Assembly: GCA_024711005.1 (NCBI GenBank)
Contig: JANJTQ010000223.1
Span: forward strand, 1 to 37,623
DNA: 37,623 nt
DNA from: Opitutaceae bacterium
GTDB taxonomy: Bacteria; Verrucomicrobiota; Verrucomicrobiia; Opitutales; Opitutaceae
Direction: 5' to 3'
Position 1 is the first letter of the stretch, and every line of letters starts with the position of its first letter. Below are positions 26,217 through 37,170 of this stretch, in pieces. A program made the translations under genes and the position numbers. A model generated the notes under the pieces. It did not search any database, was not told the origin of the DNA, and worked only from the letters and a program-made list of their open reading frames with translations.

Positions 26217-26310
26217 CCAACTCCCAATGAAGAATTCCCCGACCTTCATGCCGACTCCGCGCCACCGCTCTTCGCCATTGAACATTGGTCATTGGTCATT
26301 GGTCATTTCC
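26198..26310. repeat. Two facing 5-heptad CATTNNN elements (inverted pair) between HIT gene and phoH
   Basis: 26276-26310 CATTGAA CATTGGT CATTGGT CATTGGT CATTTCC; reverse-complement partner at 26198-26232 (AATGGCC AATGCCC GATGACC AACTCCC AATGAAG). Confidence 0.75.
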
Positions 26311-26319
26311 TAAGGAGCC

Positions 26320-27309
26320 ATGGCGACCAAGACCCTCCACTTCCCCTCCGCGCGCCATCTCCACCAGCTCTACGCCGGTCGCGAGGACAACCTTGCGTTC
26401 ATCGAGAAACACCTCGGCGTAAGCCTTGTGAGCCGCGACGACTGGCTTCAAATCGACGGTCCCGAGGCGGCCATCGCCCAAACCGAATCGCTCCTCGGTT
26501 TCCTCAACGAAGCCCGCACGCAAGGCGTTCAGATTCGCACGACGGATCTCACCCGGTTCACCGAGATGATCGCACGCGGCGAGGCCGATCATCTCCGCGA
26601 ACTCTTCGGCAAGCCCCTCGTGGTCGCCACCAATCGCAAGACCATCGTCCCCAAGACGCTCGGCCAGAAGCTTTACCTTCAGTCGATTCAGACCCATCCG
26701 CTCGTCTTCGGCATCGGCCCCGCCGGCACCGGCAAGACCTATCTTGCGATGGCCGCCGCCGTCTCCGCCCTCCTCAAAAACCAGGTCCAGCGCATCATCC
26801 TCACCCGCCCCGCCGTCGAGGCCGGCGAGGCCCTCGGTTTTCTCCCCGGCGATCTCAACGAAAAGATTCTCCCTTATTTGCGGCCGCTCTACGACGCGAT
26901 GCACGACATGCTCGACGCCGAGGACGTTGCCCGCCTCACCGAAAAAACCGTGATCGAGATCGCCCCGCTCGCCTACATGCGCGGCCGCACACTCTCCAAC
27001 TCCTTTATCATTCTGGACGAGGCGCAAAACACCACGCCCGAGCAGATGATGATGTTCCTCACCCGCCTCGGCGAAGAGTCCCGCATGGTGGTCACCGGCG
27101 ACATCACCCAGATCGACCTGCCGCGCGCGAAACAATCCGGACTGCTCGAGGTCCAACGCATCCTCCGCGACGTCCCGGGCGTTGAGTTCCATCAATTTAG
27201 CGGCGCCGATGTCGTGCGCCACCCGCTCGTCTCGAAAATCATCGAGGCTTACGAGCGCTACAAAAACCCCATCGCGACCGCCGAGGGCGACCGCGACGAA
27301 ACCCGCTAA
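26320..27309 (+). CDS. phoH: PhoH family ATPase
   Basis: IVPKTLGQKLYLQSIQTHPLVFGIGPAGTGKTYLAMAAAVSALLKNQVQRIILTRPAVEAGEALGFLPGDLNEKILPYLRPLYDAM; FIILDEAQNTTPEQMMMFLTRLG. Confidence 0.95.
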   Translation: MATKTLHFPSARHLHQLYAGREDNLAFIEKHLGVSLVSRDDWLQIDGPEAAIAQTESLLGFLNEARTQGVQIRTTDLTRFTEMIARGEADHLRELFGKPLVVATNRKTIVPKTLGQKLYLQSIQTHPLVFGIGPAGTGKTYLAMAAAVSALLKNQVQRIILTRPAVEAGEALGFLPGDLNEKILPYLRPLYDAMHDMLDAEDVARLTEKTVIEIAPLAYMRGRTLSNSFIILDEAQNTTPEQMMMFLTRLGEESRMVVTGDITQIDLPRAKQSGLLEVQRILRDVPGVEFHQFSGADVVRHPLVSKIIEAYERYKNPIATAEGDRDETR

Positions 27310-31146: not shown

Positions 31147-33717
31147 ATGGAATTCGACCTCGATCAACGCACCGCATCCCTGAGCATCGGCGAATTTTCC
31201 GCCTTTCTCATCGGCCCGCGCGAGCCCGGTGACGGCTCCGGCGCGCAAGGACTCTGGCGCGCGCAGCTCGGCACCCGCTGGCATCAAGAACTTCGCGCCA
31301 CCACCACGAGTTCCACCCCCGGCGCCACGTTCGAGGTTCCCGTCACCGGCCGCGTCTTTCATGCCGGCTGGACGCTCACCCTCACCGGTCGCATCGACCA
31401 ACTCCTCCCGCCGACCCCGGCTTCGCCCGCCGCCATCCTCCGCGAGATCAAGACCACCCTCGATCCGATCCCCGCGCCCGAGGAAGACCTGCGCGCCGCT
31501 CATCCGGACTATTTCGCACAACTCGCCACCTACCTCACCCTCCGCCGAATCGCCGATCCTGCGGAAAAAATCCGCGGCGAACTCGTCTTCGTCGAGGCGG
31601 GCAGCGGACTGATCCAAACAATCGCATTCACCACGGCCGACGAAGCGCCCTTCCGCGTCCAGCTCGAGCGCGTCGCCGAGTTCCTCAACCTCCGCCTTCG
31701 CGCCCGCGAACGTCTCCGCAATCTCTCCTTTCGTTCCGCCTTTGCCGAGTTACGCGAAGGCCAGCAAACGACCCAGGCCGACCTCGCCGCCGCGCTCGCG
31801 AGCCATCAACACGTCCTCTTCACCGCCCCCACCGGCTTCGGCAAAACCGGCGCACTCCTCGAATGCGCCCTCGGCGCGATGAAAGCCGGCCGCTACTCCC
31901 GTCTCCTCTACCTCACCAGCAAAGCCACCGGTCAACTCCAGGTCCTCCGTACCCTCGAATCCATGACCGCCGCCCCAAACCCGGTTTGTCACTTATTAAG
32001 TGACAAACCGGCCGGGGCCGTTTCCTCCGAAACCGTCAAAACTCCCGTGTCCACCTGGCATGTCCGACCCAAACACGAGCATTGCCTCACTCCCGAATGC
32101 TTCTGCCAGCGTCGCGAATTCAACCACCCCGAAAGCATCGCCCAGCGGTGGTCGCGGGCCGGACTTTCACGCTTTTATCTGTTTGAAGACGAGGCTCGCG
32201 ACCTTGATGCGCTCCGCTCCGCCGGTCGCAACGCGCAGATCTGCCCCTACGAAATCACCCGCACCGCCCTCGCCTTTCAGGACGTGTGGATCGGTGACTA
32301 CAACTACGTCTTCGCCCCCGCCAATCGCGGACTCTTCTACAACCAGCCCGGCTTTAATCCCGCCGAAACCCTCCTCGTAATCGACGAGGCGCACAACCTT
32401 CCCGCCCGCGCCGCCGACGCCCGTTCGCACACCGTCCTCGTCGACGATGCCCGTCGCGTGCTCTCCGAACTCGACTACGTCCGTGCCCCCGCCGCGCTCC
32501 AGCGCGCTTGGGAAACATGGACGCTCCTCCTGTCGTCCATCAACCCCTGCGATGCACTCGATTTTGCAATGGAAGACGACGTGGCCGACACCCTCCGCCG
32601 ACTCGCCGAACTCCTCACCCTCACCCCGCTCGACTACGAGGAGATCGAGCAGCCGGTCCGTGAACTCCTGTGGCAGGTCCCCGCGCTCGCCGAGTGGTTT
32701 GCGCAGCATTTTCCCCGCCTTGTCTGGAGTCCCCGCGCCGGCGAACTCCGACTCACCTGCCTCGACGCCGCGCTTCCGACGGGAGAGATCCTTCGCGATT
32801 ACGCCGGGGTGATCTTTGCCACCGCGACCCCAGGCCCCGCCGCCGCCTTCACCGAAGCCTGCGGACTCTCCGAAGGTAGGGCGGGGACTCCGCTCCCCGC
32901 CTCCCCGCCCCGTAGCAGCCGAGGTAACGAGGCTGACGCATCGACCTCCGTCCCCATCGATCATCGCTCATTGAACATCGGTCATTCCTTCACCTCCGTG
33001 ACGGCGCATACCCCATGGCGCGACCATGCCTACGAGATCGCCTACGACGTGAGGGTTGACACGACCTATCAACAGCGGGCCCGCCACGCCGGCACGACCG
33101 CCGACACCATCGCAGCCCTCCACGAAGCCGCCTCCGCCATTGGTCATTCGTCATTGGGCATTGGTCATTCCGCACCGACAGGCGCGATCGCCGTCTTCTT
33201 CCCGAGCTACGCCTACGCGGAGTCCATCTCTGCCACGCTCGACCAACGCCATCCGCACCTGCGTGTCGCCCTGCAACCCCGTCTCAGCGGACTCGCCGCG
33301 CAATCCGCCTGGGTCGACGAATCCCTCGCGTTTTCCGATGCGCTCTTCCTCGTCCTTGGCAGCAGTTTCGCGGAAGGCATCGATACGCTTGGCGGCCGCA
33401 TCAGCCACGCGCTGGTCGTCGGCCCCGCGTTGCCGGAAGTCAACGCCGTCCAGAAAGCCCGCCTCGCCGCGCTCCGCGGTCATACGCGCGAAGCGGCCTT
33501 TCAACGCGTCTACCAGATTCCCGGTATCCAAAAAGTGAATCAAGCGCTCGGTCGTCTCGTACGCGCCCCTGGCCAGCACGCGAAGGTGATCCTGCAATGC
33601 CGTCGTTTCATCGAGCCCGCCTACGCCTCCCTGCTCGACCGGGATTACCAATTCGGCGAAACCATCACCACCCCCGCCGACCTCACGACGTGGCTGGGCA
33701 AGGATTCAACCCTTTAG
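31147..33717 (+). CDS. PD-(D/E)XK nuclease fused to Fe-S XPD/DinG-family helicase
   Basis: N-term LGTRWHQEL, LTGRIDQLL, AILREIKTT, YFAQLATYL (H-D-ExK-QxxxY); helicase APTGFGKTGALLE, CLTPECFCQ...ICPYE cysteines, VIDEAHNLP, FATATPG, QALGRLVRAPGQ. Confidence 0.85.
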   Translation: MEFDLDQRTASLSIGEFSAFLIGPREPGDGSGAQGLWRAQLGTRWHQELRATTTSSTPGATFEVPVTGRVFHAGWTLTLTGRIDQLLPPTPASPAAILREIKTTLDPIPAPEEDLRAAHPDYFAQLATYLTLRRIADPAEKIRGELVFVEAGSGLIQTIAFTTADEAPFRVQLERVAEFLNLRLRARERLRNLSFRSAFAELREGQQTTQADLAAALASHQHVLFTAPTGFGKTGALLECALGAMKAGRYSRLLYLTSKATGQLQVLRTLESMTAAPNPVCHLLSDKPAGAVSSETVKTPVSTWHVRPKHEHCLTPECFCQRREFNHPESIAQRWSRAGLSRFYLFEDEARDLDALRSAGRNAQICPYEITRTALAFQDVWIGDYNYVFAPANRGLFYNQPGFNPAETLLVIDEAHNLPARAADARSHTVLVDDARRVLSELDYVRAPAALQRAWETWTLLLSSINPCDALDFAMEDDVADTLRRLAELLTLTPLDYEEIEQPVRELLWQVPALAEWFAQHFPRLVWSPRAGELRLTCLDAALPTGEILRDYAGVIFATATPGPAAAFTEACGLSEGRAGTPLPASPPRSSRGNEADASTSVPIDHRSLNIGHSFTSVTAHTPWRDHAYEIAYDVRVDTTYQQRARHAGTTADTIAALHEAASAIGHSSLGIGHSAPTGAIAVFFPSYAYAESISATLDQRHPHLRVALQPRLSGLAAQSAWVDESLAFSDALFLVLGSSFAEGIDTLGGRISHALVVGPALPEVNAVQKARLAALRGHTREAAFQRVYQIPGIQKVNQALGRLVRAPGQHAKVILQCRRFIEPAYASLLDRDYQFGETITTPADLTTWLGKDSTL
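31981..32011. repeat. Perfect palindromic repeat inside helicase CDS
   Basis: CCGGTTTGTCACTT-att-AAGTGACAAACCGG, 14-bp perfect arms. Confidence 0.85.
32880..32989. repeat. Composite in-frame repeat block inside helicase CDS
   Basis: GGCGGGGA-ctccgc-TCCCCGCC hairpin (32880-32901), CAGCC-gaggtaacga-GGCTG (32916-32935), five heptads CATCGAT CATCGCT CATTGAA CATCGGT CATTCCT (32955-32989). Confidence 0.7.
33138..33172. repeat. Heptad CATTNNN element inside helicase CDS
   Basis: CATTGGT CATTCGT CATTGGG CATTGGT CATTCCG. Confidence 0.75.
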
Positions 33718-37148: not shown

Positions 37149-37170
37149 CATCGGTCATTGGACATTGGTC

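Follow-up and report, generated by a model that had tools for sequence, protein, structure and literature searches.

Four loops of a DNA helicase in an Opitutaceae genome, three of them occupied here, appear to be permissive sites for the in-frame insertion or expansion of repeats dispersed in the genome, a reading to which we give a probability of about three in four. The helicase gene lies on the forward strand at 31147-33717 of the window, the whole stretch of 37,623 nucleotides that was analysed, and the source assembly comprises 5.0 Mb in 351 contigs. The open reading frame encodes 856 amino acids, in which DEAD_2 and Helicase_C_2 were matched by Pfam. The best structural match of its predicted model is Finegoldia magna DinG (PDB 9kqh; Foldseek, E 3.9e-40, 18% identity), and a relative of the helicase is present in 195 of 200 family genomes. 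Residues C313, C320, and C366 and those of the DEAH box are invariant, and the Fe-S region is presumed. By its helicase motifs, putative Fe-S cysteines, and predicted fold, the product belongs to the DinG/XPD family. It has fold and motifs in common with F. magna DinG and XPD helicases and differs from them in the repeat-filled loops between the motifs. Within the N-terminal 200 amino acids (31147-31750), GRIDQL...REIKTT resembles a PD-(D/E)XK nuclease motif, which may indicate a nuclease fused to the DinG-type helicase.

The loops are designated S1 (about residues 133-143), S2 (274-300), S3 (574-620), and S4 (660-680). The earlier note proposed that the gene had absorbed at least three repeat elements, and the frame indeed stays open through all of them over the 856 residues. 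Loop S2 contains a perfect palindrome, CCGGTTTGTCACTTATTAAGTGACAAACCGG, at 31981-32011 (two arms of 15 bp around one central base), which lies in frame and encodes PVCHLLSDKPA (residues 279-289). Its arm of 15 bp exceeds the maximum of 12 bp in 200 codon shuffles of the helicase gene, and its DNA hairpin has a z of -6.3. Loop S3 holds a GC hairpin, GGCGGGGACTCCGCTCCCCGCC, at 32880-32901 (residues 578-585; hairpin z -2.5), with similar copies on contigs C157, C87, C12, and C204 of the same genome. A GTAG-tagged REP-like element, GTAGCAGCCGAGGTAACGAGGCTG, lies on the forward strand at 32912-32935 (residues 589-597, SSRGNEA) and is also found in the helicase of relative G009; the REP hairpin by itself (32908-32940) is of unremarkable stability (z -1.2). 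The same loop contains a degenerate heptad array of the TCATTGG family at about 32958-32988 (forward strand; residues 604-614, IDHRSLNIGHS), which matches at 73% the heptad array of loop S4, CATTGGTCATTCGTCATTGGGCATTGGTCATTC, at 33138-33172 (forward strand; residues 664-676, AIGHSSLGIGHS). Both inserts show lag-7 periodicity, each at p<0.01 compared with codon shuffles. The segment 32880-32989 had been described as one composite block; it does contain a GC hairpin, a REP, and heptads, but these are three unrelated elements and not a single unit. It gave 52 matches in its own genome, most of them to the REP GTAGCAGCCGAGGTAACGAGGCTG and a few to the GC hairpin. Together with the roughly 50 palindrome sites described below, these matches bear out the view of the palindrome and the block as genomic repeats.

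The AlphaFold model of the helicase has a mean pLDDT of 79.6, with values below 50 at residues 26-37, 280-297, 314-329, 577-612, and 668-672. Three of these five segments (280-297, 577-612, and 668-672) coincide with the inserts at 279-289, 578-614, and 664-676, which is consistent with the predicted location of all inserts in loops, bearing in mind that shallow alignment depth in variable loops can also lower pLDDT. The remaining segments lie in the presumed Fe-S region (314-329) and near the N-terminus (26-37). The same loops differ in length among 57 family orthologs, are variable across all of them, and are rich in A, P, S, and T. The named relatives in the comparison were Rariglobus sp., Opitutus sp., Opitutaceae MAGs, and Geminisphaera colitermitum. 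As had been anticipated, close relatives either lack the inserts or carry others: in S4, G010 (83% identical) has none and G004 and G009 have different sequence, and the S2 palindrome is missing in G003, G005, G007, and G009. Identical peptides in the same places across distant genera, which the earlier note would have taken as a sign of ancestral coding sequence, occur only superficially. CHL(L/I)xD-like peptides are present in S2 of several genera, but the DNA encoding them is usually that of the palindrome family of the respective genome, and it is missing from other relatives.

The palindrome is dispersed in its own genome, where about 50 sites were found, with perfect arms mostly of 9-21 bp, compared with 0 sites for a reversed-pattern control. 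The element is about 25-40 bp long with a symmetric core of 19 bp; its outer arms vary in sequence, yet are often self-complementary to 15-21 bp, and decayed copies are common. The exact pattern GGAATCGGACATTCCRDAGC, an ill-chosen query, gave zero matches. Rfam gave no hit. Most copies lie outside genes, and insertion into genes may therefore be rare and old. In a simple codon-usage scan, from which loci L106-L108 were excluded (at least L108 is DNA of a relative), 11 of 45 sites fell within coding ORFs and left the frame open; 10 of these lie in the sole stop-free frame and one, a variant copy, in its other open frame. Adding a further variant copy in an AMP-binding gene, the total is 12 in-frame sites in 11 genes. 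The hosts assigned by Pfam are an OGG1-like glycosylase, NnrE/D, an M32 carboxypeptidase (Taq), an RsmE-type methyltransferase, an HPPK-PabB fusion (two copies), a class-V aminotransferase, a SAM methyltransferase, and GH20-like, AMP-binding, and 3-beta-HSD-like proteins. The earlier claim was supported for the helicase and too low in scale, since the palindrome is found in 11 genes and the loops are repeat-filled family-wide. Two more sites flagged as genic contain a stop and resemble the 3' ends of genes. At loci L128, L143, and L112, palindromes seem to be located where a gene ends and may provide its stop codon.

Empty sites were observed in other hosts as well. The carboxypeptidase insert is missing in G003, G005, G007, and G008, and the NnrE/D palindrome is missing in G005; G003, G005, and G007 make up the other branch of the genus in a tree built from the cores of helicase and carboxypeptidase. 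G000 has a single palindrome in the methyltransferase gene, and G002 has two. Compared with a PDB relative, the aminotransferase gains a net length of only about 3 residues from its palindrome, which may therefore have overwritten a native loop. Palindromes are often paired, about 46-57 bp apart, and some pairs are inverted like REP dimers (L110, L112, and L116; sites in G032 and G224). Four palindromes form a tandem array with a spacing of exactly 90 bp at G002:C2:108234-108522 (L226). The data analysed revealed neither a transposition event nor a target duplication, nor an enzyme that would mobilise the palindrome.

The palindrome core TGTCANNTANTANNTGACA was found in 18 of 24 chosen genomes and its reversed control in none, and it is nearly confined to Opitutaceae, with one imperfect match in 264 genomes outside the family (phylum sample, n=289). 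Its copy number ranges from 0 to 74 within a single genus, and in the complete genome G032 the palindromes are spread along the chromosome with no domain visible. The palindromes of different genomes have distinct dialects, which differ as blocks. CTTA occurs in 81 of 84 arms and TT before TGTCA in 80 of 84 in G000, whereas G002 has CCTA in 44 of 44 arms and AG in 41; the prevailing forms are CGTA in G032, AACTA in G035, and ATCTA in G225. Five loci (the helicase, NnrE/D, 3-beta-HSD-like, methyltransferase, and carboxypeptidase genes) are occupied in both G000 and G002, each in its own dialect, and three positions per arm differ between the two genomes at these loci. Likewise, the congeners G032 (CGTA) and G091 (CCTA) each show their own dialect in helicase loop S2. 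An exception is the helicase palindrome of G225, which does not match the majority dialect of that genome. Two dialects are found within one gene at L154, the PabB gene of G009 (CHLLGDT, CHLIGDT, and CHLISDK).

The REP-like element at 32912-32935 has the structure GTAG-CAGCC-loop-GGCTG and about 40 copies in its own genome, which agrees with GTAG REPs in tag, stem-loop, and copy number. Opposite-strand pairs about 50 bp apart, as expected of REP dimers, are present on contigs C165, C143, C120, C222, C253, C179, C47, C52, and C273. Among 16 copies read, a clear coding context was seen for the helicase copy only and not for the 15 others. The genome has RAYT-type transposase genes (Y1_Tnp) on C18 and C219. 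The REP core CGAGGTAACG was not found within about 1.5 kb of either gene in this incomplete assembly, and the two genes were not taken as carriers of the helicase REP.

Heptad periodicity extends across the family. Lag-7 identity in S1 to S4 of the 57 orthologs gave z-values of 8.3, 14.2, 12.0, and 10.3 compared with codon shuffles and recurred at lags 14 and 21; these values overstate certainty because the orthologs are not independent. The helicase core of the same orthologs also gave large z-values, owing to relatedness, but the 7/14/21 pattern was absent. Individually, 57 of 159 loop inserts were significant for lag-7 (p<0.01). The variety of heptad units is a stronger argument than the z-values: TCATTGG, AGCTCCC, CTCAACT, AAATCCC, CAGCGAT, and GTCCACC are found, depending on the genome. 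AGCTC heptads fill the helicase loops of G002, a genome with 26 occurrences in 166 kb, and there were none in 395 kb of the genome containing the window. Strong heptad arrays are rare in 432 kb of the latter and, besides those in the helicase, lie near gene starts, indicating that coding loops in this genome do not generally take up heptads. The helicase is special in this respect among the sampled genes. An intergenic array at 26275-26310 consists of the same heptad as the S4 array. This array and another TCATTGG array at 37149-37170 lie just upstream of start codons (an ORF at 26320 and an aspartate carbamoyltransferase-like ORF at about 37190), and similar arrays are found at the starts of two further genes, one FeoB-like (L189:5034-5069) and one BatA-like (L191:12970-13007), which hints at a role in the 5' leader. 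The L189 and L191 heptads were rejected as genic cases on account of their positions before or at the start of these genes.

We considered several explanations for the filling of these loops. In the preferred one, dispersed repeats of the same genome would insert or expand in frame in the permissive helicase loops and would be retained there because they do little harm. The palindrome would be a short element of about 25-40 bp, resembling the Rickettsia palindromic elements (RPEs), that spreads in the genome and survives in genes only in its stop-free reading phase, giving the peptide (V/K)CHL(L/I)(S/G)D(K/T). The REP and the heptads would be further dispersed repeats captured by these loops, and each lineage would re-supply the loops from its own dialect via new insertion or conversion between copies. 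A bolder reading, somewhat less likely than not, is that the palindrome is mobile and that it and the genome-specific heptads reach the same coding loops again and again in the dialect current at the time, so that the loops would evolve with the repeat population and not by ordinary descent. A possible but less likely alternative is the inheritance of one ancestral set of genic insertions, whose copies were later homogenised by gene conversion or template switching with little present mobility. The palindrome does occupy the same loops in congeners, the carboxypeptidase site is unoccupied in the early-branching G003, G005, and G007, and the combination of perfect arms and diverging outer arms is in keeping with quasi-palindrome correction. 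Indeed, at the loci common to congeners, an ancestral insertion followed by concerted change fits as well as new insertions. However, it would be unusual for copies of 25-40 bp in unrelated contexts to undergo conversion, the methyltransferase differs in copy number between G000 (one) and G002 (two), and the S2 palindrome is found again in several genera that are separated by empty relatives.

It is rather unlikely that the palindrome is a species-specific site for a dimeric DNA-binding protein, either a regulator or a chromosome organiser, with functional genic copies in tolerant loops and dialects co-evolving with the protein. DNA uptake sequence dialects provide a parallel for such co-evolution. 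The symmetric 19-bp core, nearly invariant within each genome and changing as a block from one genome to another, and the palindrome pairs spaced about 46-57 bp apart are compatible with a binding site, whereas the many decayed copies, the variable yet often self-complementary outer arms, the genome-wide spread in G032, and a copy number of 0 to 74 in one genus argue against it. Dialects may be renewed by new insertion, by conversion between copies, or through co-evolution with a binding protein. That the inserts are native, fast-evolving low-complexity loop sequence resembling repeats by chance or common composition is highly improbable; the variability and composition of the loops in all orthologs would agree with this, but exact dispersed copies with matching dialects, a 7-base periodicity out of step with codons, and empty sites in relatives contradict it. 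A chance low-complexity origin was rejected on heptad periodicity, arm-length shuffles, dialects, and genome copies.

On the preferred reading, the helicase inserts would clearly illustrate how 'junk' repeats turn into protein in nature. The case for selfish repeats as lasting protein sequence has so far usually been argued from Rickettsia. The free-living Opitutaceae offer many cases in named enzymes of known structure, with empty sites and species-specific dialects. The rate at which repeats enter genes, the loops that receive them, and the in-step change of palindromes at unlinked coding loci become measurable in this system.

Heptanucleotide tandem repeats are known in bacteria as the cyanobacterial STRR and the TAACTGA repeats of Beggiatoaceae (PMC4679880). 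The Opitutaceae heptads resemble them in their 7-base units, genome specificity, and mostly intergenic location, and differ in forming short arrays within the coding loops of one enzyme family-wide. Intragenic GTAG REPs, as described in the text of PMC3733652, are most numerous in Opitutus terrae; their hosts are often DNA repair genes and include RNA helicases as well as uvrA and DNA ligase. The helicase REP at 32912-32935 is of that kind and from the same bacterial family, and going by that text it therefore represents a phenomenon already known in Opitutaceae. In contrast, the palindrome at 31981-32011 is almost loopless and without a GTAG/CGTC tag, and the TGTCA/GTCAC motif does not occur in the text of PMC3733652. 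Our literature search found no paper on a short non-GTAG palindrome family of Opitutaceae and no description of dialect matching at orthologous coding loci or of recurrent heptad uptake into the loops of one enzyme. The RPEs of Rickettsia are dispersed palindromes located in frame in exposed regions of many unrelated genes; inserts are shared by orthologs at a given locus, and near-identical sites are occupied by different families (PMC10969869, PMC3767692). They are about 100-150 bp long and rickettsial (Rickettsia/Wolbachia) (PMC10969869, PMC3767692). The Opitutaceae palindrome is similarly genome-dispersed and in frame in unrelated genes (12 sites, 11 genes), but it is a single near-perfect palindrome of 25-40 bp with a genome-wide dialect. 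Its length and near confinement to Opitutaceae make it RPE-like in behaviour and not a member of the RPEs. Since Rickettsia RPEs and intragenic GTAG REPs have been described, in-frame palindromes are known as a kind. The palindrome lacks the GTAG/CGTC tag and the length and taxonomic range of RPEs, yet it belongs to this known phenomenon of in-frame palindromes.
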